DNA from: a virus
IMG/VR virus record: IMGVR_UViG_3300042539_001764
Span: 1 to 64,000 of that record
Reading direction: 5' to 3' (one strand)
Length of the DNA stretch: 64,000 nucleotides
The position numbers and the translations under genes are program-made. A model generated the notes under the pieces. The model had not been told where the DNA came from and searched no databases. It saw only the letters and a list, made by a program, of their open reading frames with translations. This document shows positions 12,181-63,724 of the stretch, in pieces (within the stretch, counting starts at the first letter, position 1; each line of letters opens with the position of its first letter).

Positions 12181-14274
12181 ATGGCTGGTGTTCTTCAGCA
12201 TCTGCGTTCATCAACGCTTAACAAGCGTCCTAATCCTGCTTCCATGGTTGATGGTCAATTGGCCATTAACTATGCCAGTGGCAGTCCTGGGGCATATTTC
12301 AAGGACAGCAACGGTAACCTTGTAAAAGTGGGGCCTGTGCATGTAGGGAGTGGTGCTCCTAATGCAAGTCCTGCGAGTGGTGGCACTGCTGGCAATAGTC
12401 TTGGTGAGCAATGGCTCGATACCAGTGGTGGCACTTATGTATTTAAAATTTGGGACGGCAGTGCATGGCGTAGTGAAGCTGGTGAGTTTGTAAACGTCAC
12501 TGGCGATACAATGACTGGAGCATTGGGCGTTATTGCGGGCGATGCTTCTACTCCAGGATTATTTTTTAGCGGGGACGCAAATACTGGACTCTACTCTCCC
12601 GGCGCAGACCAAGTAGCCATCAGCACTAATGGCACGGGCAGGCTTTACATAGCGGCGGATGGAAAAATTGGAGTGGGAGTTAGTAGCCCTAATTTTTCCG
12701 CATCAATTTATGGAGCCACAAACAGCTACTCTCAATACATCAATGCCCTAAGCGGATCTACAAGTGGTGACGGGTTTTTAGTTGGACTAGACGAAGCCGG
12801 CAGTGCAGTTCTTAGGTACAGAGAAAGTGGAAGTTTAATTTTTTACACTTCTGATACTGAGCGCCTCCGCATCACCTCAACAGGGCTCGTAGGCATAGGG
12901 ACTTCTAGCCCACAGGTTCTTCTTGACATTACAGATACAGGTAATCAACCCAAGCTGCGGCTAAGTACTAACACAGCTTCAAATTTTCTTGAAATTAGCC
13001 GATCCTCCAGTACAGGTCATTACACTTTTGCGTCCGAAGAAAATGGATCCAGCATTATTTTTGCCACTGATCCCGATGGGACAGGTGCACAAAACAGGGT
13101 CACGATAGATCGCTACGGGAAAGTAGGGATTGGCTCTACTGCGCCTGCAGACAAGCTATCCGTGGCAGGATCTTCTTCTGCAGATTTCAGAGCTTTAACG
13201 CTTAGAAACTCCAATGGCGCAACAGGTTCGGCCGCTGTTTTAACCTTTGAGGCATCTAGTGGGACAGAGGGTGATACTGGAGCAATCGCAAGCCAAATCA
13301 AAGGTGTACGAGACAATGTTGGAACAGCGGGTGGCCTTGAGTTTTGGACATCTAATTCAGGCACTCCGTATCAACGCGCCCGCATCGACAGCTCCGGCAG
13401 GTTGTTAGTTGGCACGTCTAGTGCGCGTCAAAGTAGCGGTGGTTTGCAGGTTGAGTCAACCGCTGGCAATTCTTTTGTAACGATTACAAGGAACGATTCA
13501 GGGCCAAATGCACCGCAATTAAGTTTGCAAAAATCCCGTGGCACCGCCAACGGTCAGTTCACAGTAGTTAATTCAAACGATCAACTGGGCCAAATAAACT
13601 TCAAAGGCGCGGACGGTACTGCTGACATTACGGCGGCCCAAATTCTTTCTGAAGTAGATGGCACCCCTGGCACCAACGACATGCCGGGCCGCTTAGTGTT
13701 CTCCACTACTGCGGACGGGGCGAGCAGCCCGACGGAGCGGATGAGGATCAGCAACACTGGCACAGTGCTCACATACAGCACAGATGATTGTATTTCGGCC
13801 AGAGCTTCACAAGGAGCCGGGACAAGCTACTTCTTCTATAGGGGAATGCAAGGTGCATCCAGCACCACTGCAGGCGGCACTACTTCGTTTATTGTCTACA
13901 CAAACGGGAATGTCCAGAACACTAATAATAGTTACGCGGGTATTTCTGACCTTAGGCTAAAAGAGAACATTGTTGACGCCACCTCGCAGTGGGCTGACAT
14001 CAAAGCCCTTCAAGTTCGCAAGTACAACTTCAGGGAAGAAACAGGTCAACAGACCCACACTCAGATCGGCCTGATCGCCCAAGAGGTTGAACTTGTTTCC
14101 CCTGGCCTCGTCAGCGAATCACCTGACCGCGACGAAGACGGCAACGACCTTGGCACCGTCACCAAGAGCGTCAATTATTCCGTGCTCTACATGAAAGCCG
14201 TCAAGGCGTTGCAGGAAGCAATGGAGCGAATCGAAACCCTTGAGGCCGCCGTTGCAACTCTGCAAGGTTCGTAG
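12181..14274 (+). CDS. Tail fibre with C-terminal S74 intramolecular chaperone
   Basis: A 697-residue fibre. Residues about 100-560 show repeated 'TGLVGIGTSSP', 'GTERMRIS' and 'ADGKIGVGVSS' elements typical of phage fibre shafts. The C-terminal 120 residues are a peptidase S74 / intramolecular chaperone domain: SDLRLKENIVDA (Ser and Lys of the self-cleavage dyad), then IKALQVRKYNF, LIAQEVE, VNYSVLYMKAVKALQE. These domains trimerise the fibre and then cut themselves off. The last part is a short coiled coil. Strong assignment for the C-terminus. Confidence 0.85.
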   Translation: MAGVLQHLRSSTLNKRPNPASMVDGQLAINYASGSPGAYFKDSNGNLVKVGPVHVGSGAPNASPASGGTAGNSLGEQWLDTSGGTYVFKIWDGSAWRSEAGEFVNVTGDTMTGALGVIAGDASTPGLFFSGDANTGLYSPGADQVAISTNGTGRLYIAADGKIGVGVSSPNFSASIYGATNSYSQYINALSGSTSGDGFLVGLDEAGSAVLRYRESGSLIFYTSDTERLRITSTGLVGIGTSSPQVLLDITDTGNQPKLRLSTNTASNFLEISRSSSTGHYTFASEENGSSIIFATDPDGTGAQNRVTIDRYGKVGIGSTAPADKLSVAGSSSADFRALTLRNSNGATGSAAVLTFEASSGTEGDTGAIASQIKGVRDNVGTAGGLEFWTSNSGTPYQRARIDSSGRLLVGTSSARQSSGGLQVESTAGNSFVTITRNDSGPNAPQLSLQKSRGTANGQFTVVNSNDQLGQINFKGADGTADITAAQILSEVDGTPGTNDMPGRLVFSTTADGASSPTERMRISNTGTVLTYSTDDCISARASQGAGTSYFFYRGMQGASSTTAGGTTSFIVYTNGNVQNTNNSYAGISDLRLKENIVDATSQWADIKALQVRKYNFREETGQQTHTQIGLIAQEVELVSPGLVSESPDRDEDGNDLGTVTKSVNYSVLYMKAVKALQEAMERIETLEAAVATLQGS

Positions 14275-51924: not shown

Positions 51925-54192
51925 ATGGAAAACGAAGCAGTTGATCTTGGCCACGTGGGAAGTGGTGGAGTGAGGGCAGATGGGCTTCAAAATGTGCTTA
52001 TCGGCATGGGTACTGGCCGTGACAAGGGGCAATACACAAAGACTACTGCTACGATTTTCTTAGCTCAAGAGGAGCTAGAGAATCTTTATGGCGAATGGCT
52101 TCCTCGTCGCATTGTTGACATTTATGCTGATCAAGCCACTCGGAAAGGCTTCAAGGTTTTGTTTGGCGGAGACGGTGTTAGAGCCGAAGAAGTGCAAGGA
52201 ATTGAACAAGTAATTGAAGACCTCTACATCCTTGAGCACCTCAACCTCGCAGCGAAGAACGCCCGCCTTTATGGGGGTGCTTGTCTACTTCTTTTTATTG
52301 ACGATGGGCGTCCCGCTTATATGCCTGTCGATAAACGGAATATCCGTCGCATCGAAGACATTGAGTGCTTGGATAGATGGCAAATTGCTCCCGTCATTAA
52401 CGAAGAAAACTTATACGACTATTCAAAAGCCACTTATTATCAGATTATCTCTGGAGATTTAATTAACCAGCCGCAACTATCTTATATTCATAAAGATAGG
52501 ATTTTGCGTTTCGATGGGGACTGGCTGCCGTATCGCGTGAGGCAGCGGAATTATGGCTGGGGCATGAGCAGCTTACAAACTGTTTACGACAGCTTTAAGC
52601 ATTATTGGACTGGATTAAATTCGGCGGCAACGCTTCTCACCGAGTTTGACATCTTTGTTCATAAGGTGAGGGGCCTTGCGGCAATGCTTGCTGCTGGCAA
52701 GGAAAGTTCCATTCGTGATCGTTTACAAGTGAACGATATGAGCAAGAGCATCTATCGCGGCTACGCGATTGATGCAGAGAAAGAAGAGCTTGAATTTATT
52801 AGTCGCAACTTTGGCGGCATTGGAGAGATCTTAGAAAAGCTGCGCGTAGACATTATTGGCGCTAGCAAGATTCCTCATACAGTGTTATTTGGCGAGAGCC
52901 CCAGCGGCCTTGGCTCCACTGGCCGCAGCGAAGAGCGTGATTTTGCCAAAACGCTTGCTGATTATCAAAGCGTCCATTTCAAGCGGCCCATCAAGAAACT
53001 GATGGAAATGATCATGCTGAGTAAGGAGGGTCCGACAAAAGGAGAGCTTCCTGAATCGTGGCGCATTTCGTTCAATCCATTGTTTGAGCTTAATGAGCGC
53101 GAAATGGCAGACGTACGGGCGCGTGTGGCGGCTGTAGACGGCCGTTACATTCAACTTGGCGTACTGAGTCCGAAAGAAGTGGCAGACGCCCGCTATGGCG
53201 GTTCTGAGTGGAGCATGGAACTCACCTTGGATCCGTCCGTAGTGCGGGAACTTCCCCAGTCTTCCACTCAAGGAGGGGGTGGTTCCACTCAGAAAGGGGG
53301 TGGTTTCGCAGTGCCTCCTGGCGGACGCGATCCAATGAACGAAGAGAATGGCACGCTTCCCATGGACGGCAGTCGGGAAGTGCAAGACGGTGCTGGTCTT
53401 TATCTTCCTGGCGACTTAGAAAAAGTACGTGGTGATGTGACCTTCACTGATAAAGAGCTGCATTCACGAGCCGTGAGCGCCGCCAAGGCCAAGTTCAAAG
53501 TGTGGCCTTCCGCTTATGCCAGCGGTTATGTGGTGCAGCAGTACAAGCAGATGTATAAGAAAAAGCATGGGTCATTGAGCGGCGCTTTCAAGAGCGATGG
53601 ACAAGACATTCACGCGGATGATCTTGATCAATGGTTCAAAGAAAAGTGGGTGAGGATTGGCGCTAACGGAGAGATTCTTGGCCCTTGTGGCGGGCGTGAA
53701 AAGAAGGAAGGCAAGCCCAAGTGTCTTCCTCAGGCCAAAGCCCAAGCAATGAGCAAGGAAGAGCGTCAAACAATTGTTGCTCGCAAGCGCAAAGCTGATC
53801 CTGATCCTGAACGCAAAGGAAAAGCAAAAATGGTGAGCAGCAAAGTGGATGCCATTAGCCCTGATGCTCATATTTATGAGACCAAAGAAGAGGCATTAGC
53901 CACTGCCCAGAAAATTGGCTGCGCCGGATTCCACCAGGAAGAAGGGGAAGATGGCCCCATTTTCATGCCTTGTTCAACGCACGAAATTTTTCTTAAGAAG
54001 CATGAAGAATTTTTGTCGCAAAAGAACGACGCAATGGAGCCGATGAAGGTAGAAGGCCTCATCCTTTCTGACATTGACGAGGCTTCGTTGATTAGTGAAG
54101 AGGATATTGATGCTGCCTTAAATCAATGGAAAGAGGAAGCTCCTGAGCGTTTTAAAGATATCCTGGAGGCAGAGGATGCAAAGCCTGAATGA
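51925..54192 (+). CDS. Portal protein with C-terminal extension
   Basis: A 755-residue protein. The first ~420 residues are a DUF1073-type portal: LYGEWLPRRIVDIYADQATRKG, ARLYGGACLLLFI, LLTEFDIFVHKVRG, IGEILEKLRVDIIGASKIP, GRSEERDFAKTLADYQS (long blocks shortened). After a Gly/Gln/Pro linker (about 430-465), residues 490-640 carry a Lys-rich domain with FKVWPSAYASGYVVQQY, WFKEKWVRIG, GPCGG, PKCLPQAKAQAMSKEERQ (DUF5872-like). The last 100 residues are acidic. The extension is unusual. Confidence 0.85.
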   Translation: MENEAVDLGHVGSGGVRADGLQNVLIGMGTGRDKGQYTKTTATIFLAQEELENLYGEWLPRRIVDIYADQATRKGFKVLFGGDGVRAEEVQGIEQVIEDLYILEHLNLAAKNARLYGGACLLLFIDDGRPAYMPVDKRNIRRIEDIECLDRWQIAPVINEENLYDYSKATYYQIISGDLINQPQLSYIHKDRILRFDGDWLPYRVRQRNYGWGMSSLQTVYDSFKHYWTGLNSAATLLTEFDIFVHKVRGLAAMLAAGKESSIRDRLQVNDMSKSIYRGYAIDAEKEELEFISRNFGGIGEILEKLRVDIIGASKIPHTVLFGESPSGLGSTGRSEERDFAKTLADYQSVHFKRPIKKLMEMIMLSKEGPTKGELPESWRISFNPLFELNEREMADVRARVAAVDGRYIQLGVLSPKEVADARYGGSEWSMELTLDPSVVRELPQSSTQGGGGSTQKGGGFAVPPGGRDPMNEENGTLPMDGSREVQDGAGLYLPGDLEKVRGDVTFTDKELHSRAVSAAKAKFKVWPSAYASGYVVQQYKQMYKKKHGSLSGAFKSDGQDIHADDLDQWFKEKWVRIGANGEILGPCGGREKKEGKPKCLPQAKAQAMSKEERQTIVARKRKADPDPERKGKAKMVSSKVDAISPDAHIYETKEEALATAQKIGCAGFHQEEGEDGPIFMPCSTHEIFLKKHEEFLSQKNDAMEPMKVEGLILSDIDEASLISEEDIDAALNQWKEEAPERFKDILEAEDAKPE

Positions 54193-54861: not shown

Positions 54862-55587
54862 ATGGACGTTTTGGTTGGAAGCACTGGCCTGATTGGTAGT
54901 GTTTTGCGCGAGCATCATGACTTTGATTGCCGCTTTAATTCCGAAAACATCCACCTTGCTCCATTGTTGAAACAAGATGTCAACAGGCTTTATTTGGCGT
55001 GTTTACCAGCGGAGAAATGGAAGGTAAATCAAGCTCCTGCTGCTGATTTCGACAATATGTACCATGTTTTGACAAAAATAAGATTGTTGAGACCAAAGGA
55101 GATCATTCTTTATTCGACCATCGATGTCTATTGTCAAACTTATAAATACGTTGAGAATTATCCCGAAATTCATGATATTGATTATGGCTCTGTTCGATAC
55201 ATTTTTGAGTTATTAGTCAAGGCTACATTCCCGGAGGCTATTATTACAATCATTCGTCTTCCTGCATTGTTTCACAAGCGGATCAAGAAGAACATCTTGT
55301 TTGATCTTCTTAATAAGAACAACGTAGAAAAAATCAACGCTAATTCTTGCTATCAATGGTACGATCTGAATGATTTATGGGCACATACTGAAGCCTGCGA
55401 AAAAGGCAGAGTGTATCAGTGGTTTCCTGAGCCCATTGAAACTCTAGAAATTATTGATAAATGGTTTGCTTGGGCTAGAGAGGTAGTCGATTGCGGGGCA
55501 CGCATTGAATACAACTATGCTCCATATTCTGCTAGCAAAGAAGAAACAATGAAGAAAATGGAGGCATTTATCAATGCTTGGAATTAG
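54862..55587 (+). CDS. NAD-dependent epimerase/dehydratase-like protein
   Basis: Start chosen at ATG 54862 (MDVLVGSTGLIGSVL), 2 bases after the preceding stop. A 241-residue short-chain reductase: GSTGLIGS nucleotide-binding loop, LYSTIDVY with a candidate catalytic Ser/Tyr, IIRLPALFHKR. Beginning of an inserted sugar-modification cluster between head genes. Substrate unknown. Confidence 0.7.
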   Translation: MDVLVGSTGLIGSVLREHHDFDCRFNSENIHLAPLLKQDVNRLYLACLPAEKWKVNQAPAADFDNMYHVLTKIRLLRPKEIILYSTIDVYCQTYKYVENYPEIHDIDYGSVRYIFELLVKATFPEAIITIIRLPALFHKRIKKNILFDLLNKNNVEKINANSCYQWYDLNDLWAHTEACEKGRVYQWFPEPIETLEIIDKWFAWAREVVDCGARIEYNYAPYSASKEETMKKMEAFINAWN

Positions 55588-56314
55588 CGCTATCGGCTGG
55601 AAGGATGAAGAAGAGCATGACATTTTGAGCGCTAATGCAGGCGCTTTTAATTTTATTGAGATTGTCCCTTCTCGTATCTTCGCGAGAAATGAAGATTTTG
55701 GTGATATTGCAAAACGCTATCGAGAGCACTATGGACTTTGGGCTTATTCTGCCCAGGCATTATTTTATGACAGCAGCGTGCAAAGTTTTGAAGATACGGC
55801 TGCCACTCAAGAACATTTATTGCGCATTGTAAAGCTCGGTTCTCTTATGGGAATCAAGCGTTTTGTACTTGGCAGTCCTGCTTTACGAAGAGGAAGTCCA
55901 TCATGTCTTATGGAAGTTTTGAAGCGAATGGACAGCGTGTTGGATGCGAACGATGCCATCCTTTGTATTGAGCCAATCGCCAAAGCCTTTGGAGGTAAAT
56001 ATTTTTATACAGTCGAAGAGATTGTCAATCATATTGACTTCTACAACTTGCATCATGTAAAGACAATGCTTGACACAAATAATGCATGGCTGCAAGGCGA
56101 CAGTCCAAGGAAGATTATCAAGAATTATTTTCGCTTTATTGCTCATGTACATATCAGCGATACAGACAATGGTCCCATTTTGAATCAATATGAGCACAGG
56201 CAGATCAAACTGTTTCTTGATTCAAGCAGCTATCAATATGGCATCACGAGGGAACTGGTCAATGTCAACCAGCACCATCGAGAATACCCACTATTTAGGC
56301 GGCTTTATGGTTGA
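55574..56314 (+). CDS. Sugar isomerase-type TIM barrel (AP endonuclease 2 family)
   Basis: A 246-residue xylose-isomerase-like TIM barrel: FNFIEIVPSRIF, GIKRFVLGSPALRRG, LCIEPIAKAFGG (Glu of the metal site), VKTMLDTNNAW, HVHISDT (His and Asp). Metal ligands Glu-Asp-His-Glu can be placed. Overlaps the previous gene by 14 bases. Works on a sugar or inositol-like substrate, likely in the same pathway as its neighbours. Confidence 0.75.
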   Translation: MLGISAIGWKDEEEHDILSANAGAFNFIEIVPSRIFARNEDFGDIAKRYREHYGLWAYSAQALFYDSSVQSFEDTAATQEHLLRIVKLGSLMGIKRFVLGSPALRRGSPSCLMEVLKRMDSVLDANDAILCIEPIAKAFGGKYFYTVEEIVNHIDFYNLHHVKTMLDTNNAWLQGDSPRKIIKNYFRFIAHVHISDTDNGPILNQYEHRQIKLFLDSSSYQYGITRELVNVNQHHREYPLFRRLYG

Positions 56315-57258
56315 GCAATAATTTGTTTGACCATTTGTTCGATGGCATAGATGCCTTGGATTTTGCCAGTAAAAAAAGAGAATAAATTATCTTCCTGACG
56401 CATCAATGGCGTACGCTTAGCACTGCTATCTTTAACTTTTGCCTTGATTGAAAGCGTTGGAAATAGATAGTCAAAACTATCAGAGAAATCAGGCCAATAG
56501 CGCTCCACGTGTTCTTCAATTAAGCGCCTTGCATTGTCCGCATTGTCCAGCGATTTATCGCTCATAATTCCATGCTTTACATGACTCAGCGAGAAACACG
56601 TTTCGTTGTATGGATAGATGGAAAATAGTTCTCCGTCGATGTAAGTGAGAGCGCCAAATGGAAGAGGCTTCTTGGGGCGATAAATGAACATAGCCACTGC
56701 TTCAAAGAACTGAGAAGGCAATGGCTCAAGGAGAGAGTTGTTAGTGCAATCAAAAACAAAATCATAATCTTTCTTTAGTGCTTGCAGATTGGAGCGTTGA
56801 ATTGCTTCCTTTTTAACTAATGACTCTAGTTGCCATTGAAAATATAGACTTGCACCAATTGCATCAATGCGCTTTTCAGGCGTATTTAATAAAAGCGATG
56901 TGTGGCCGAAGGCTTGTGAGTCCAGTAAATTATGTGGCCCTTTTCCAAAAATAATTGAAATAGTTTCAGCATCAAGAAGGCTTTCATCTTCTGACACTGC
57001 ATAGTAATTATTGCTTACATCATGGACTAGATTTCCATAGTCTTCCATGAAGCGCACGAAAGTAGTCGCGCATAAACGGCGAGTGGCAGCATTTCTGGCG
57101 TAGTGATAACCATAGTGCAAGCGGTTTTGATTGACAAAGGATGTTTCTGAAATGAGCGTATGGTTCTTTTCGTACAACACCACTTCCGCTTGGTCCCGCA
57201 AAACCATTGCCAAATGACAGCCCACCCAGCCGCCGCCAATAATTGCTACACGCTTCAT
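56305..57258 (-). CDS. FAD-dependent oxidoreductase (DAO family)
   Basis: A 317-residue flavoprotein: VAIIGGGWVGCHLAMVLRD (Rossmann GxGxxG), NQNRLHYGYHYARNA, DFVFDCTN. It probably oxidises an amino-sugar or similar. Reads opposite to the sugar genes, converging with the isomerase gene by 10 bases, and forms a two-gene unit with the next gene. Confidence 0.75.
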   Translation of the reverse strand: MKRVAIIGGGWVGCHLAMVLRDQAEVVLYEKNHTLISETSFVNQNRLHYGYHYARNAATRRLCATTFVRFMEDYGNLVHDVSNNYYAVSEDESLLDAETISIIFGKGPHNLLDSQAFGHTSLLLNTPEKRIDAIGASLYFQWQLESLVKKEAIQRSNLQALKKDYDFVFDCTNNSLLEPLPSQFFEAVAMFIYRPKKPLPFGALTYIDGELFSIYPYNETCFSLSHVKHGIMSDKSLDNADNARRLIEEHVERYWPDFSDSFDYLFPTLSIKAKVKDSSAKRTPLMRQEDNLFSFFTGKIQGIYAIEQMVKQIIAQP

Positions 57259-57953
57259 CAGATGTCAATACAAAGGTGGGGTTGCACGCCTTGCCAGTTG
57301 CTTTTAGCTTTGGCTAGCTCTAGTTGAGGGAAAAATTCAATGCGACGCTGCATTCCAGTGCCATAAGGATCAGCATGGCCTTGGTAATTCCATTCGTCTG
57401 GACCATGGAGATGAGGATGATAGATATGACAACGCACGTCTTGAAGCTTCCAAAGCATATAGTCCTCGTTCGGCACTCCCCATTGCTTCCAGTGTTGTAA
57501 TACCTCTGGCGAGTTGTCCATATTTTTGATGGCCATCAGGCGCTCCTTATGAGCCATGAGATAGTCGTAGCGATATAGACCAATACTCATTGATGGCGTT
57601 TGCTTCATTGCCACTTTTTCTGGGTGTTCCACTGGTGGTTCGTAAGCCAAAGCCTTAAAAGTTGGCCCTGCAATGCAAGTGTCATGCAGCAAGAACCAAT
57701 AATCACTTTCAATTGAATGTTCCACCACTTCAATTAATGGTGTGTATTCAAAAGAATTTTGCTGCGTCAGCAGCATTGGTACACCTTTGTAGCTTGTATT
57801 AGCGCGAACAGTTTGTCCACCATTGACAATTAAAATTTCTTCCTGACCAATGCCAGCAGCCAGCAAGCTGGGGATAATCACTGGAATGGTATGGGGAGCA
57901 AATTTCTTGCACGTACTAATACAGAAACGAATAGAACCTTGCGACAGCACCAT
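57258..57953 (-). CDS. GT-A-like glycosyltransferase-like protein
   Basis: A 231-residue protein without a recognised family name. It has DYWFLLHDTCIAGP near residue 85, a short acidic motif (HDT) resembling GT-A nucleotide-sugar sites, and a C-terminal HPHLHGPDEWNYQGHADPYG. Overlaps the FAD oxidoreductase start by one base. Likely adds or makes sugar, by context. Confidence 0.5.
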   Translation of the reverse strand: MVLSQGSIRFCISTCKKFAPHTIPVIIPSLLAAGIGQEEILIVNGGQTVRANTSYKGVPMLLTQQNSFEYTPLIEVVEHSIESDYWFLLHDTCIAGPTFKALAYEPPVEHPEKVAMKQTPSMSIGLYRYDYLMAHKERLMAIKNMDNSPEVLQHWKQWGVPNEDYMLWKLQDVRCHIYHPHLHGPDEWNYQGHADPYGTGMQRRIEFFPQLELAKAKSNWQGVQPHLCIDI

Positions 57954-58010
57954 TCCTCCTTCTTTTGTGCCCTCAGTATAAAAGGCCCTTAAGATGACGA
58001 AGATTCACGG
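57954..58010. promoter_or_regulatory. Divergent promoter region with TATAAA
   Basis: A 57-base gap between divergent genes contains TATAAAA followed by GGCCCTT on the rightward side. -35 not clear. Confidence 0.4.
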
Positions 58011-59240
58011 ATGACTATGGCTCGTATTCTTTACTGCGGTGACGCATTTGTAGAAACTGGTTTTGGCCGCGTTGCGCAATATTTGCTTCCTGCTTTGGCT
58101 GAAGAGCACGAAGTGAGTGTTCTGTCCGTGAATTACCATGGCGATCCCCATCCAGAGGCGAAGAAATATCAAGTGTTTCCGGCGATGCTGCATGGTGCGG
58201 ATCCTTTTGGGTCTCATCGTATTGCAGAAGTCATTCAGCGAGTGAAGCCTGATCTTGTGTGGGTAACAAATGACATCTGGATTGCATTGAATTTGTGGGA
58301 AAAAGCAAAGCCACTGAAAGAGCAGATGGGCTTTAAATGGTTTGTTTATACCCCCATTGACTCATATGGGCTTTTCCCTGATCTAGCAAAGCCCATGATG
58401 GAATGGGATGGTCTTGCCACTTATACGGAGTTTGCGAAGAAAGAGCTTGAGCTAATGGGCTACACAAAGCCTGTTTACATTATCGGCCACGGCACTGACT
58501 TTACCAAATTCTTCCCACTAGACAAAGAAGAATGCCGTAAAAAGCTGGGTGTTCCAGAAGATGTATTTGTTGTATTTAATGGCAACAGGAATCAACCGCG
58601 CAAACGGATTGATTTAACGATTAAAGCATTTATTAAATTTGCGAAAGATAAGGATGATGCACGCTTGTGGCTTAACATGGGCAGCAAGGATTTGGGCTGG
58701 GAACTCGTTCCCTTATTTAAGCGCGTGGCACGAGATGAAGGATTTGACCCCACTGGCAAGCTGATTCTGACAAGCCCACACTATTCTGTGGACAACTGTC
58801 TTCCCATTGAACAGCTCAATCAGGTGTATAACGCTGCCGATATTGGTATTAATACTTGCATTGGAGAGGGATGGGGACTGGTTAATTCAGAGCATGGCGC
58901 CACTGGCGTGGCTCAAGTTGTACCAGATCATACGAGCCTGGCTGAAATCTTTGATGAGCTGCCTCGCATTGAATGCATTGGTAGTGAAACCGATAGGAAC
59001 TATGGCCTGGAACGATTGCTTCCAGATCCACAATCTGCAGCGGACATTCTTACTTATTACTACGAAAATCGCGATGTCCTGCAAGAGCATGGCAAGTGGT
59101 GCTACAACCGCCTGCATGAAGAGCCTTTTACTTGGCCTTATATTCAGCAGCAATTAAAAGAAGCAGTAATGGACACTCTTAATGCCAAGCCTGTAGAGCC
59201 TGAATTCAAAGGTTTTGGTACTCCCGCAAAAATCGCTTGA
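58011..59240 (+). CDS. Glycosyltransferase, GT4 family
   Basis: A 409-residue GT-B enzyme: ETGFGRVAQYLLPALA, PDLVWVTNDIWI, GHGTDFTKFFPLDK, VFNGNRNQPRKRIDLTI, and the nucleotide-sugar site NTCIGEGWGLVNSEHGA (E-x7-E region). Glycosylates virion or host surface. The first ATG (58011) is followed by a second at 58017. Confidence 0.9.
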   Translation: MTMARILYCGDAFVETGFGRVAQYLLPALAEEHEVSVLSVNYHGDPHPEAKKYQVFPAMLHGADPFGSHRIAEVIQRVKPDLVWVTNDIWIALNLWEKAKPLKEQMGFKWFVYTPIDSYGLFPDLAKPMMEWDGLATYTEFAKKELELMGYTKPVYIIGHGTDFTKFFPLDKEECRKKLGVPEDVFVVFNGNRNQPRKRIDLTIKAFIKFAKDKDDARLWLNMGSKDLGWELVPLFKRVARDEGFDPTGKLILTSPHYSVDNCLPIEQLNQVYNAADIGINTCIGEGWGLVNSEHGATGVAQVVPDHTSLAEIFDELPRIECIGSETDRNYGLERLLPDPQSAADILTYYYENRDVLQEHGKWCYNRLHEEPFTWPYIQQQLKEAVMDTLNAKPVEPEFKGFGTPAKIA

Positions 59241-59245
59241 TCGCC

Positions 59246-59962
59246 ATGCAGATTTCACAAATCTTCCTTTCAGCTAATCCATCGGAAGAGCTAAGTCCAT
59301 TTCTTAAGCATGCCACTGGCACCATTGATGCATGCTTTCCAGATGTGGAGCATGTGATTTACAACAACGAGACACTCCGTGCTTTCATTGTTGATAATTA
59401 TGAACAAGAAGTTGTATGGGCTTACGATTGTTTAACGCCATTTTCTTACAAAGCAGACCTTGGCCGTTTCTGTTTATTGAACAAGCTTGGCGGCTGGTAT
59501 TTTGATATTGGTGTGAGGGCTTTTAATGCAGTGGACCTCGGCGAACGTATTGAATTTTTGGCCTTTCGTGATATTCAGCGCTTTAGCTATACAAGCTGGG
59601 CCTGCGCTACAACTGTGCTCTATTCCAAGCCTGACAACAAAGCTTTACAGGGCGCCATTGGAATGATTGTCGAAAATTGCAAAACGCAATACTATGGCAT
59701 CACTCCATTGTGCCCTACTGGTCCAACATTACTTGGCAAGGCGCTTGCAGCAAATGGAAGTCAGGTTAATTTTATTTACGGAGACTATCTTGAACTGACG
59801 CCTACGCACGGCCAGAAGAATAGGGCATTCGTGCTGCCTGACGGTACGATTATGGCTTGGAGTAAGCCCGCTGGTGGCGGCGATCTTACTGGATTGGGCG
59901 CGAAAGGCGTTAATAATTACAACGAGCTTTGGGCCGCGAGGAAAGTGTATGCAACCGTCTGA
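59246..59962 (+). CDS. Glycosyltransferase, GT-A DXD type (Gly_transf_sug-like)
   Basis: Start chosen at ATG 59246; a TTG three codons upstream is possible. A 238-residue transferase: SYKADLGRFCLLNKLGGWYFDIGV is the DXD block (split over residues 66-90), with PTGPTLL later. Likely sugar donor site for virion or host glycan modification. Overlaps the next gene by 14 bases. Confidence 0.85.
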   Translation: MQISQIFLSANPSEELSPFLKHATGTIDACFPDVEHVIYNNETLRAFIVDNYEQEVVWAYDCLTPFSYKADLGRFCLLNKLGGWYFDIGVRAFNAVDLGERIEFLAFRDIQRFSYTSWACATTVLYSKPDNKALQGAIGMIVENCKTQYYGITPLCPTGPTLLGKALAANGSQVNFIYGDYLELTPTHGQKNRAFVLPDGTIMAWSKPAGGGDLTGLGAKGVNNYNELWAARKVYATV

Positions 59963-60665
59963 TTGCACAATTTATGCCGTATGCATTCCTGGCGAAAAGG
60001 TGCGCTACCAAGCCCGTTCTCGCATTGTCCCCATTATGGGAGGAGCTTATGCCTTGTCCAATGATGAGCGTGAAACGCTTCGCTCTGAGGGTTATGTATT
60101 TGATGATGAGAATGCTTCTCTTTCCACTCGCAATAGTCGATGGGGAGAATTGTCTTGCATCTCTTGGATGATTCTCAACGCCAATGAAAAAAATATTGGT
60201 AATGCGCAATATCGCCGGAATTGGATTGAGCCCGAAAATCAATGGTACGACGAGGATACGTTGTATTTTCCAGAGCCCGCATTGTTTAACTGCACATTAG
60301 AACAACAGTTCTATGGTGGACATTCAGCATTTGATGCGCCTGCTATCACAAGAGAATTAGCTGATTCAGGAAGTTGGATTTTCTCTCGTGAAGAAATTGA
60401 TGCCATCTGGAAGCAGAATAGCTTTATTGGCTGCAATATGGCGCGAGGAAGTAATGTTCAGTATAAACAATTCATGAGTGCATTGTTTGTCGCGCTTGCC
60501 CCTATTTGGCATAAGCACGAAGAGCATTTTCTTCGCATTGGAGGTTATGACAAGCGAGCTTTAGCTTTTATCGCAGAGCGCCTCATCACTGGAATGGTTT
60601 TGTATCGAGACAAACTTTTTCCTGGCATGAATATAGCTACGGCGCCGATAGGATTTATTCATTGA
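59949..60665 (+). CDS. DUF4422-type glycosyltransferase-like protein
   Basis: Start chosen at ATG 59949, overlapping the previous stop; the frame is open 25 codons further upstream. A 238-residue protein: RWGELSCISWMILNANEKN and GNAQYRRNW match the 'E.TALYW...G..HYRR' block of DUF4422 glycosyltransferases. Third transferase in a row, so a multi-step glycosylation is likely. Confidence 0.75.
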   Translation: MQPSDCTIYAVCIPGEKVRYQARSRIVPIMGGAYALSNDERETLRSEGYVFDDENASLSTRNSRWGELSCISWMILNANEKNIGNAQYRRNWIEPENQWYDEDTLYFPEPALFNCTLEQQFYGGHSAFDAPAITRELADSGSWIFSREEIDAIWKQNSFIGCNMARGSNVQYKQFMSALFVALAPIWHKHEEHFLRIGGYDKRALAFIAERLITGMVLYRDKLFPGMNIATAPIGFIH

Positions 60666-60691: not shown

Positions 60692-60961
60692 ATGACTAAA
60701 AAACAAAAGCAGGCAAAAATTGCCAAGGTGATGCGTGAATTCAAGGCCGGCACGCTTAAGGGGAGCGATAAAAAGCCTGTTACAAATCGCAAGCAGGCTA
60801 TTGCGATTGCTCTTTCTGAGGCAGGTATGTCAATGAAGGGCAAGAGTGATGCCTATATCGATGCTTATATTGACACGATGATGTGCATGGAAGTAGAAGA
60901 GCCGGAAGAAGAAGCAGAGATGGAAGGTGAGATGGATGCAAGCTGTGAAAAAAAGCGTTAA
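60692..60961 (+). CDS. DUF6496-like small protein, upstream part of a frameshifted gene
   Basis: An 89-residue protein: AKIAKVMREFKAGTLKGSDKK and VTNRKQAIAIALSEAG match DUF6496-type small phage proteins, followed by an acidic C-terminus. The last codons are GAA AAA AAG CGT TAA. The heptamer A_AAA_AAG is in the frameshift phase, and a -1 shift fuses it to a 100-residue conserved domain (next entry). Confidence 0.75.
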   Translation: MTKKQKQAKIAKVMREFKAGTLKGSDKKPVTNRKQAIAIALSEAGMSMKGKSDAYIDAYIDTMMCMEVEEPEEEAEMEGEMDASCEKKR

Positions 60962-61305
60962 GGGGCGACGCTGAAAGCTTTGCCCCTCCCGCTGCTGTTA
61001 GAAGCGCTGCGCGACGCGGTCTGGAACTGCGCAAGAAGCATGGAAAAGGTGGTTTAACGACACAGGAGGCAGGCAAGCAAGGTATTGGCAGCGGTGTTGC
61101 TAGAGCTAGTGATCTGGCCGGTGGCGGAGCGGTAAGCTTCGCCACGATCAAACGAATGTCTGCGTTCTTCTCTCGCCATGAAAAAAACAAAAGTGGTGGA
61201 GAAAACGATGCTGGTTATATTGCATGGCTTTTATGGGGAGGCGATGCTGGTAGAGCGTGGGCAAATCGTATTATTAAGATGGTGGAAAGTCGCCAAAAAG
61301 ATTAA
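60949..61305 (+). CDS. -1 frame extension with conserved phage domain
   Basis: The -1 frame opens with TGA at 60946-60948, directly before the slippery site, and continues for 118 codons to TAA (61303). It has no ATG, GTG or TTG until residue ~70, yet the conserved domain starts within 12 residues: PPAAVRSAARRGLELRKKHG, SFATIKRMSAFFSRHEKNK, IAWLLWGGDAGRAWANR. A stem-loop (AGGGGC/GCCCCT with inner GCT/AGC) begins 5 bases after the heptamer. This is best explained as a -1 programmed frameshift of the upstream gene. Confidence 0.7.
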   Translation, partial: KKALRGDAESFAPPAAVRSAARRGLELRKKHGKGGLTTQEAGKQGIGSGVARASDLAGGGAVSFATIKRMSAFFSRHEKNKSGGENDAGYIAWLLWGGDAGRAWANRIIKMVESRQKD

Positions 61306-61619
61306 TGAGCGAATATGTGCGCGTCATCGAGCAAGAAGACGAAGGCATTGGTCTTTTGCAGGCGCTGTCTATTCTTTCCTCTAATGAACATCGCAATACT
61401 TCGCGATGGGAATTAGTGGAAAAACAATGTTTTAAAAATGGGCGTCTTGACGAAACGCACATCTATGTGATGAGCGTTTACGAAAAACCTGACCCTCATT
61501 TTGAGCCAACTAAATTTCTCACGTTTGAAATTGAGGCAATGGCAAAGTCATACATCATGGAAGGCATTGAGGATCAACTTCGCGATATTCGTGAAGAAGA
61601 TAATGATGATGAGGATTGA
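61305..61619 (+). CDS. Uncharacterised acidic protein
   Basis: A 104-residue protein coupled to the preceding frame (TAATG). Beta start, helical acidic C-terminus (GIEDQLRDIREEDNDDED). It is the last rightward gene before the convergent XRE gene. No function recognised. Confidence 0.5.
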   Translation: MSEYVRVIEQEDEGIGLLQALSILSSNEHRNTSRWELVEKQCFKNGRLDETHIYVMSVYEKPDPHFEPTKFLTFEIEAMAKSYIMEGIEDQLRDIREEDNDDED

Positions 61620-61904
61620 TTATTCTCGCTTTGCATTGACCACGAACGAAGGATAGCCCATTAGCCATAGCACGCTAATTCCATAGAGGCCACTGAGAGT
61701 TCTCACCTGCACGCAATCCGGCGGTAGCACCGCTCGTTCAATGCGCGAGTAAGAGCTTTGACTAATATGTAAAGCATCTGCCACATCTTTCTGAGAGAGC
61801 CCGCTATTAAGGCGGGCTTCTTTAATGCGAGAAGCGATGAGAAGGCGAGCCTGCTGATGAGGCATTTTAAGGACATCAGCGGTACTCTTCTTAAGAAACA
61901 TCAC
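61620..61904 (-). CDS. XRE-type transcription regulator
   Basis: A 94-residue HTH protein. ASRIKEARLNSGLSQKDVADALHISQSSYSRIERA (in two parts, residues 24-57) is a lambda Cro/CI-type HTH. An internal ATG (MPHQQARLL, residue 14) is an alternative start. It is divergent from the prohead protease gene, so it could act on the 62-base gap in between (TATAAT at 61944-61949 and AT-rich repeats). The only repressor-like gene in the window. Confidence 0.85.
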   Translation of the reverse strand: MMFLKKSTADVLKMPHQQARLLIASRIKEARLNSGLSQKDVADALHISQSSYSRIERAVLPPDCVQVRTLSGLYGISVLWLMGYPSFVVNAKRE

Positions 61905-61967: not shown

Positions 61968-63161
61968 ATGAGCACCACATCTTGTCGCTACGATTTCTCT
62001 CCTATTGAGAAATATGAGGTGACGCCTGAAGGTTATCTTCGGGCATGGGCCTCTATTGCTCGCACTGGCATTCAGCTCTATACAGATGCTGATGGTTCAG
62101 TGCGGCGTGAATATAGGCCTGAAACAGAAGTGGCGTCTCCCGATAGTCTTGCTTCCTTTGCGGGCAAGGCAATCACTTCGGAGCACCCTCCTGTTCTTCT
62201 TGATGCCGCAAATACTAAAGACTACCAAGTAGGCTTTAGCGGCACTGAAGTGGTGTACGACAATGGTTTTGTCAAGGCCGTGATGACAATCACGGACGAA
62301 GATACCATTGAACGTATCATGCGAGGTGATGCTCGTGAGGTAAGCGCTGGCTATAGGGTCAACTACGATCCAACGCCTGGCGTTACTGATAGCGGTGAGC
62401 ATTACGATGGCATCCAAAAGGAAATCATCGGAAATCACATCGCCGTTGTTCGTCGGGGCCGCGCTGGCCCGCAAGTGAAGCTTCATCTTGATCGTCAAGA
62501 TGCTGCTGATCCATCCTTAATTTCCATCGAGGAAAATACAACTATGAGCGCGAAAGTCGTTTTCGACGGCGCCGAGTTTGAAGTGACGGAGAGCGTTGCT
62601 CTTGCGATCACTAAAGAACGCGAAGACGCCAAGATGTCCTACGAGGACATGAAGAAGAAGTACGACGAGCTGCAAGCCGCCGCCGATTCCATGAAGTCCG
62701 AAATGGACGCTATGGAAAAGGAAATGAAAGGCAAAATGGACGCTGCCGAAGGTCGCGCCGATGCCCTGGCTGAGCAGGTCGAAGAACTGAATACTGAACT
62801 GGCTGCTGCCAAGGAAATCAATCTTGATTCCATGGTGGAAGAGCGTGTTGCTCTTGTCGAGAAGGCTAAGCCTGTGCTCGATGCCGCCTACGACTTCGCT
62901 GGCAAAACTGCTCGCGAAGTGATGGTTGATTCCATCAAGGCAGTGCGTGGTGATGAGCTCGATCTTTCTGAGAAGAGCGATGACTACGTGCAGGCAATGT
63001 TTGATACTCTCTCTGAGGGTCGCAAAGATTCCGCCACCACTGATGAGCTGCGCAAAGTCGTAGCTTCCATTGCTTCTCCCATGTCTGCACCTTCGTCCTA
63101 CATGGACATGCTGCAGAATGCCTGGAAGAAGCCCCTTTCCATCTCCAAGGAGGCTAAGTAA
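61968..63161 (+). CDS. Prohead protease fused to scaffold region (DUF2213-like)
   Basis: A 397-residue protein. Residues about 1-180 are DUF2213-like: GYLRAWASIARTGIQLYTD, KAITSEHPPVLL, DAREVSAGYRVNYD, GNHIAVVRRGRAG. Residues about 200-320 form a long coiled coil rich in Lys, Glu and Met, typical of a scaffold. Phages of this type couple protease and scaffold in one polypeptide. The gene precedes decoration and capsid genes. Confidence 0.8.
   Translation: MSTTSCRYDFSPIEKYEVTPEGYLRAWASIARTGIQLYTDADGSVRREYRPETEVASPDSLASFAGKAITSEHPPVLLDAANTKDYQVGFSGTEVVYDNGFVKAVMTITDEDTIERIMRGDAREVSAGYRVNYDPTPGVTDSGEHYDGIQKEIIGNHIAVVRRGRAGPQVKLHLDRQDAADPSLISIEENTTMSAKVVFDGAEFEVTESVALAITKEREDAKMSYEDMKKKYDELQAAADSMKSEMDAMEKEMKGKMDAAEGRADALAEQVEELNTELAAAKEINLDSMVEERVALVEKAKPVLDAAYDFAGKTAREVMVDSIKAVRGDELDLSEKSDDYVQAMFDTLSEGRKDSATTDELRKVVASIASPMSAPSSYMDMLQNAWKKPLSISKEAK
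62544..63161 (+). CDS. Possible internal scaffold start within protease gene
   Basis: An in-frame ATG at 62544 (MSAKVVFDGAEFEV) is preceded by GAGGAAAA about 11 bases upstream. Initiation here would give a free 205-residue scaffold, as known for several phages. Weak without experiments. Confidence 0.35.
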   Translation: MSAKVVFDGAEFEVTESVALAITKEREDAKMSYEDMKKKYDELQAAADSMKSEMDAMEKEMKGKMDAAEGRADALAEQVEELNTELAAAKEINLDSMVEERVALVEKAKPVLDAAYDFAGKTAREVMVDSIKAVRGDELDLSEKSDDYVQAMFDTLSEGRKDSATTDELRKVVASIASPMSAPSSYMDMLQNAWKKPLSISKEAK

Positions 63162-63163
63162 TT

Positions 63164-63724
63164 ATGGCCGTAACTTTCTCTGCTTCGGGCACTGCCTCCG
63201 CTGGTGGCGTGCAACAGAGCTACGCTCTGGAGCAAACCGCACTGCTGGAAGGTCAACTGTCTGACATTCGCGACAACACCATTGGCACCTATGTCAATGA
63301 GAGTGGTGCTGTTGTTGCTTTCGGTAATCTGGCTGTGTACAACACTGCTGGTACTGTCGCTAACTCTGCTACCACCATTTCTGGTGCTTCTGATACCGTG
63401 CTGGGCGTTAACGTCCTCACTTATGTTGATGAAACGGCTCGCGATACAAACAATCGTCCTGGCGTGAAGAATCAGCAAGCCATGAACGTGGCTAACGAAG
63501 GTGCAGTTGCTGTTTATGTGACTGGCGCTGTGACTCCCGCATCGCCCGTGCGTGTGCTGTATTCCGCTAGCGGCACTGGCAAGGCCGGTCAGTTCTCCCA
63601 TGCTTTTGCATCGGGCAAAACTGTTCGCCTGGCTAACGCTCGTTTCCTTACCTCCACCACTGGCAGCGGCATTGCTGTGCTGGAGCTGAACGGTCCGAGC
63701 TTCACCCTCTCTGCTGATTCTTGA
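63164..63724 (+). CDS. Capsid decoration/stabilising protein (DUF2190-like)
   Basis: A 186-residue protein with the mixed beta and loop pattern of phage head decoration proteins (SASGTASAGGVQQSYALEQ, GVKNQQAMNVANEGAVAVYV). It sits between protease/scaffold and the major capsid gene, the usual place. Shares its spacing with the capsid operon. Confidence 0.65.
   Translation: MAVTFSASGTASAGGVQQSYALEQTALLEGQLSDIRDNTIGTYVNESGAVVAFGNLAVYNTAGTVANSATTISGASDTVLGVNVLTYVDETARDTNNRPGVKNQQAMNVANEGAVAVYVTGAVTPASPVRVLYSASGTGKAGQFSHAFASGKTVRLANARFLTSTTGSGIAVLELNGPSFTLSADS

Follow-up and report, generated by a model that had tools for sequence, protein, structure and literature searches.

We analyzed a 64,000-nt stretch of viral DNA (hereafter, the window) taken from a virus contig of 68,093 bases, and focused on a small gene that overlaps a second reading frame (Table 1). 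Because this gene sits between the portal gene and those for the head protease and cement protein, it belongs to the head module.

Table 1. Coordinates of features at the locus, given as window positions
Feature	Coordinates	Strand	Description
Portal	51925-54192		In the head module
0-frame ORF (unshifted product)	60692-60961	+	89 aa; DUF6496, then a Glu-rich linker
Slippery heptamer A_AAA_AAG	60949-60955	+	0-frame codons AAA AAG
-1 frame ORF	60949-61305	+	118 codons plus TAA; predicted helical phage domain at the C terminus
0-frame stop TAA	60959-60961	+	3 nt past the heptamer; the stem begins at the final base of this codon
Stem-loop	60961-60987	+	Outer pairs 60961-60968 with 60980-60987; inner pairs 60970-60972 with 60976-60978
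Next gene	61305-61619	+	104 aa; its ATG overlaps the TAA of the -1 ORF (TAATG)
Head maturation protease	61968-63161	+	DUF2213, phrog_530
Cement protein	63164-63724		In the head module

Two overlapping frames in a head module

The DUF6496 domain of the 0-frame ORF was recognized in a Pfam search (PF20106, E = 3.3e-9), and the 3' end of this ORF reads GAA AAA AAG CGT TAA in the same frame (60947-60961). The original prediction had placed an A_AAA_AAG heptamer here in the right phase, which we confirmed to the base. Its account of a 118-codon -1 frame was likewise accurate: the frame is open from 60949 to 61302, ends with a TAA at 61303-61305, and is abutted on its 5' side by a TGA (60946-60948). 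The frame was also said to lack an early start, and no ATG, GTG, or TTG occurs within its first 40 codons in the window. A shifting ribosome would translate 60692-60955 and then 60955-61302, giving a predicted product of 88 + 116 = 204 aa.

A stem-loop of eight outer and three inner pairs starts at 60961, 5 nt past the heptamer. In the window, this hairpin had a z of -2.1, with 6 of 200 shuffles folding equally well, and the fold of the 161-nt context around the site was unremarkable. AAAAAAG occurred 13 times in the window compared to 27 expected by chance. Taken alone, the window sequence is modest, suggestive evidence for a frameshift, so we built the argument on conservation across relatives, on which the case rests.

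Several other features of the neighborhood were observed. In this genome, the portal ORF is a second example of a head protein bearing small modules, with DUF5872 and DUF3721 in frame at its C terminus; it also contains two copies of a 21-bp tandem repeat (53262-53305). Between the portal and head protease genes lie about five sugar- or glycosyltransferase-like ORFs (55574-60665; for example, DUF4422 at 59874-60665), and at the equivalent place glycosyltransferase and methyltransferase genes occur in S-CBS4, a cultured Synechococcus phage. A helix-turn-helix regulator is encoded on the minus strand inside the head module (61620-61904), again at the same place in S-CBS4.

Heptamer and stem across relatives

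A search with the -1 product returned 80 close viral loci, and a search of a phage collection returned S-CBS4. All 82 members of this first set (the window, the 80 loci, and S-CBS4) had a slippery heptamer at the junction, relative to which the downstream frame is -1, and in 81 of them the frame in phase with the heptamer was the DUF6496 ORF (the exception, L057, is described below). Further scans yielded a wide set of 146 distinct genes in which both halves were recognized; for these counts identical sequences were removed, scans overlap at some loci, near-copies remain, and the numbers are of genes, not events. In this wide set, 127 genes were split with a -1 offset, the heptamer being A_AAA_AAG in 97, G_GGA_AAG in 24, and C_CCA_AAG in 6. 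Preservation of the heptamer in other phages had been put forward as a check on the frameshift, and we found none of the 127 to be without a heptamer of the V_VVA_AAG class: the type varies (AAAAAAG, GGGAAAG, or CCCAAAG) while slipperiness stays. The DUF6496 half upstream of the heptamer is also kept across relatives. Of 98 distinct genes, 92 had the 0-frame stop 3 nt past the heptamer and 4 more had it immediately after (0 nt). Two loci, L122 (near 2001) and L200 (near 1501), had one A fewer than their near relatives, which puts them out of frame by +1; either could reflect a sequencing error or be a dead gene.

All 64 heptamers have been measured in E. coli, where C_CCA_AAG, G_GGA_AAG, and A_AAA_AAG were the most efficient in the presence of stimulators (Sharma et al., 2014; PMC4066793). 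The family uses exactly these three heptamers and no other, with the proviso that the E. coli efficiencies may not transfer to the probable cyanobacterial host. A genome contig scan for the host gave four weak MAG or genome matches and no clear host; the host is probably a cyanobacterium, the nearest cultured relative being one that infects Synechococcus.

S-CBS4, which was cultured and independently sequenced, has the same heptamer, stop, and stem as the window. The annotation of its locus (L082; HQ698895.1, 3705-4357) lists two separate hypothetical proteins, gp018 and gp019, which should be replaced by one frameshifted CDS. In this phage, L025, L059, L067, and others, an additional DESxGEKRCKxYL...K segment separates the Glu-rich linker from the slip site; in L057, this segment is predicted to be a helix. 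We considered a different upstream gene in L025 and L067 and rejected it, as both have the same DUF6496 domain plus the extra segment before the heptamer.

We then compared the stem among relatives, leaving out of the structure work two mixed-fragment alignments (A2 and A5) in which fragments were misplaced. The two-step stem-loop proposed at 5 nt past the heptamer held up in its position and outer pairs and failed in its inner step: the outer seven to eight pairs alone were conserved in the family, and the inner three, broken in 15-19 of 49 distinct sequences, were rejected as part of the stimulator. Two-sided changes that keep pairing filled 21 cells among 49 distinct 52-mers, compared to 10.8 after shuffling and no more than 3 in the slid controls. 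With columns numbered from the heptamer (0-based), pair 17-33 in the wide set was A-U in 26, C-G in 23, U-G in 7, G-U in 2, and unpaired in 5 sequences, and pair 16-34 was G-C in 59, A-U in 3, and G-U in 1. The stem thus covaries at two pairs, with compensatory changes that preserve pairing. Two further GGGAAAG loci, L278 and L282, have the stem AGGGACGA..TTCGTCCC with another G-C to A-U change; both lie outside the 146-gene count, being fragments only or having a DUF6496 part that was not recognized. Among 115 distinct sequences upstream of the slip site, only 32 had a Shine-Dalgarno (SD)-like 4-mer at -16 to -10, and we found no conserved SD-like stimulator there.

The downstream frame, natural fusions, and rival explanations

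The downstream frame was conserved as protein from near the junction. Across 111 distinct sequences, codons 5, 7, 11, 13, 14, and 17 of the -1 frame encoded invariant R, D, F, P, P, and V, and codon 10 encoded Ser (AGY or TCN) in 90 and Gly in the other 21. An independent start for the downstream domain in relatives had been named as evidence that would count against a frameshift. We found no conserved one among the relatives: start positions were scattered, and several relatives also had no start in the first 40 codons of the -1 frame.

Other phages had also been expected to encode the two parts as one ORF, and such in-frame fusions were found in 17 of the 146 distinct genes (for example, L057, L102, L119, L141, and L164). 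Sixteen of the 17 have no heptamer; L057, in which both halves form one continuous frame, is a natural fusion that keeps an out-of-phase AAAAAAG. Stem integrity followed the split: when split sequences were counted per heptamer class, 63 of 68 distinct ones formed all seven core pairs, versus 2 of 14 distinct fused sequences (Fisher p = 6e-9), despite nearly the same peptide being encoded there. The Arg codon that follows the stop and begins the stem was AGG in 97 of 98 split genes, compared to 137 of 995 (14%) elsewhere in the domain, and most fused genes use CGN for the same Arg.

On a tree of the downstream domain, built without the first 30 nt (the stem columns) and not rooted for the direction of split/fused changes, the split/fused state changed six times by parsimony and at least three times on supported branches, with fusions scattered in a split background. 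G_GGA_AAG changed 15 times, at least 6 of these being forced by well-supported branches. Some changes of heptamer type may reflect recombination of the upstream half, which carries the heptamer; slipperiness was kept regardless. Because fused relatives exist, the short product alone, or the ratio of the two, would not be needed in every phage.

These comparisons bear on three other explanations. The in-frame fusions and the seven-A run at the site could suggest that the gene is truly one continuous ORF, broken by a sequencing or assembly error, and L122 and L200 do resemble homopolymer length errors. However, many projects contributed to the 127 distinct genes that show the -1 split, and cultured S-CBS4 shows it as well; 30 of the 127 have GGGAAAG or CCCAAAG instead of an A run and hence no long homopolymer, and conservation of the stem and the AGG codon is confined to split genes. 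We regard the probability of such an error as vanishingly small. The original prediction had reached this conclusion by way of the stem-loop, a weak argument, since a stem-loop does not exclude an error; the recurrence and the non-homopolymer motifs do support it. The run of six to seven As in most members would equally suit transcriptional slippage, in which RNA polymerase adds or drops an A to give a pool of in-frame mRNAs, a phenomenon covered in PMC5009743 and known from the A runs of certain IS elements and of dnaX genes. A long homopolymer was absent from the same 30 members, however: G_GGA_AAG and C_CCA_AAG each offer two sets of three identical bases, which suits tandem tRNA slippage and not the polymerase, and an RNA stem at 5-nt spacing and a stop beside the heptamer are ribosomal features. 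Slippage by the polymerase therefore appears very unlikely.

The downstream part could also be a separate gene with its own start, the heptamer being incidental; GenBank gives gp019 of S-CBS4 an internal start at 13217, and in some relatives a start codon lies 16, 24, or 35 codons into the frame. These positions are not conserved, however, and in several relatives, as in the window, the first 40 codons are free of starts. Protein-level conservation of the -1 frame sets in at its fifth codon, upstream of any start, natural fusions join exactly at the junction, and the conservation of the heptamer, stem, and AGG codon would be left unexplained. We consider a separate gene highly improbable. Judged from the sequences, conservation of the -1 frame from the junction, together with the natural fusions, excludes an internal start as the principal route; a small product initiated internally might accompany the shifted one.

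We conclude that the site is very probably a -1 programmed ribosomal frameshift of the bacterial tandem-slippage type, which would add a helical domain to the DUF6496 protein. This reading, which the original prediction had offered, is supported by the 127 of 127 heptamers, the covarying stem, the fusions, and the absence of a conserved start, and conservation across relatives is what raises our confidence far above chance.

A probable added head domain and its likely use

The -1 ORF had been said to encode a conserved phage domain, and it does: the added domain matched one PHROG of unknown function (phrog_2859, E = 4.7e-18) and has homologs in other phages. A Pfam search gave no model for it, NCBIfam no useful family, and comparison with the PDB, by sequence and by fold, no meaningful match. 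Its structure model was all-helical (pLDDT 82.5), and against predicted viral structures the model aligned, with TM scores near 0.75 on the query, to parts of prohead proteases, XkdF-like, portal, and ParB-like proteins, and others. In Limnohabitans phage DC31, the domain is joined in frame to an XkdF/S78-type prohead protease; in Vibrio phages, it is in frame with a ParB-like protein adjoining the capsid genes; in S-CBS1, S-CBS3, and Roseobacter phage CRP-821, it is in frame on protease/MCP ORFs; and in HGTV-1, on a protease. These phages resemble the window in having a homologous domain in the head module, but attach it to other head proteins without a frameshift, whereas in the window it would be frameshifted onto DUF6496. 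From the range of its carriers, the added domain appears to be a promiscuous mobile module of phage heads, and the company it keeps suggests a role in head assembly.

The slip site, stem, conservation, and fusions are read from the sequences; the account that we infer, including slippage in the host, its efficiency, the product ratio, and the role in assembly, would run as follows. Most ribosomes would stop just past A_AAA_AAG and release the 89-aa DUF6496 protein. The stem-loop lying 5 nt downstream would make a fraction of them pause while tRNA-Lys occupies AAA and AAG; both tRNAs would slip back one base together, and reading would continue as AAA AAA GCG TTA AGG, yielding the 204-aa protein with the extra C-terminal helical domain. 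The likeliest role would be in head assembly, during which a fixed share of the DUF6496 molecules would receive a head-associated module, because other phages attach the same module directly to prohead protease, portal, and MCP-type proteins. As a second role, slipped ribosomes would be delivered to the overlapping start of the next gene. In relatives, that start and the stop codon of the domain ORF share an ATGA in 105 split genes and in 17 of 17 fused ones. The next gene is probably translationally coupled to the -1 product; given the overlap, translation of the -1 frame to its end therefore probably also serves initiation there.

The arrangement shares elements with known systems. As the original prediction had maintained, it is not the tail-chaperone frameshift: the lambda G/GT-type tail assembly chaperone is also a phage morphogenesis gene with a -1 shift and two co-terminal products, but that gene lies between tail tube and tape measure, whereas the present one has portal and head-protease neighbors. 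Searches of Pfam and PHROGs returned DUF6496 and phrog_2859 only, and no homology to a chaperone family. The claim of a new location holds with respect to the tail chaperone but is too broad otherwise, as -1 frameshifting in phage capsid genes is already known from T7/T3 gene 10, Lactobacillus phage A2, and Listeria phages A118/A500 (PMC5009743). Those systems likewise involve a head-region structural gene and an optional, promiscuous C-terminal domain that is frameshifted or in frame; they differ in joining a major capsid or tail 0-frame protein to an Ig-like (beta) domain, in place of an 89-aa DUF6496 protein and a predicted all-helical module, and their 0-frame and heptamer families are unrelated to those here. 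Ig-like extensions of phage proteins have been viewed as being in or out of frame by chance (reviewed in PMC5009743), and the natural fusions fit this view, suggesting that the joined protein matters in some phages. The IS3/IS911 family and dnaX cassettes use the same V_VVA_AAG class with a stem-loop a few nucleotides downstream (PMC4066793). Here, in contrast to the IS911 and dnaX cassettes, there is no conserved SD-like element about 10 nt upstream and no transposase or DnaX, and, in contrast to dnaX, the long form is the longer protein.

Thus, the kind of system, in which a bacterial V_VVA_AAG heptamer and stem-loop supply a phage head-region protein with an optional domain, is already known, while the gene, the domain, and the record of split and fused forms appear to be new. 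The titles and abstracts examined in the open-licence literature on cyanophage frameshifts and S-CBS4 contained no report of the present site, and we found no mention of DUF6496 among the open-licence papers searched. More tentatively, and at somewhat less than an even chance, the domain may be a second promiscuous head module, besides Ig-like domains, that is delivered by -1 frameshifting, with the site repeatedly gained, lost, and re-tooled at the same junction, cycling among the three best heptamers, and setting both the module-bearing fraction and the supply of ribosomes to the next gene.

Overall, our analyses describe a recoding site that is very well conserved, lies in neither a tail-chaperone nor a major-capsid gene, and is unannotated even in S-CBS4, so gene callers miss or shorten the frameshifted protein in more than 100 viral contigs. 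The clade forms a natural series of split and fused versions, three heptamer types, and intact and decayed stems. This series allows one to ask what frameshifting gains over fusion, whether a ratio of products or the mere rescue of an out-of-frame domain swap, and draws attention to an uncharacterized helical domain that many phages attach to their head proteins.
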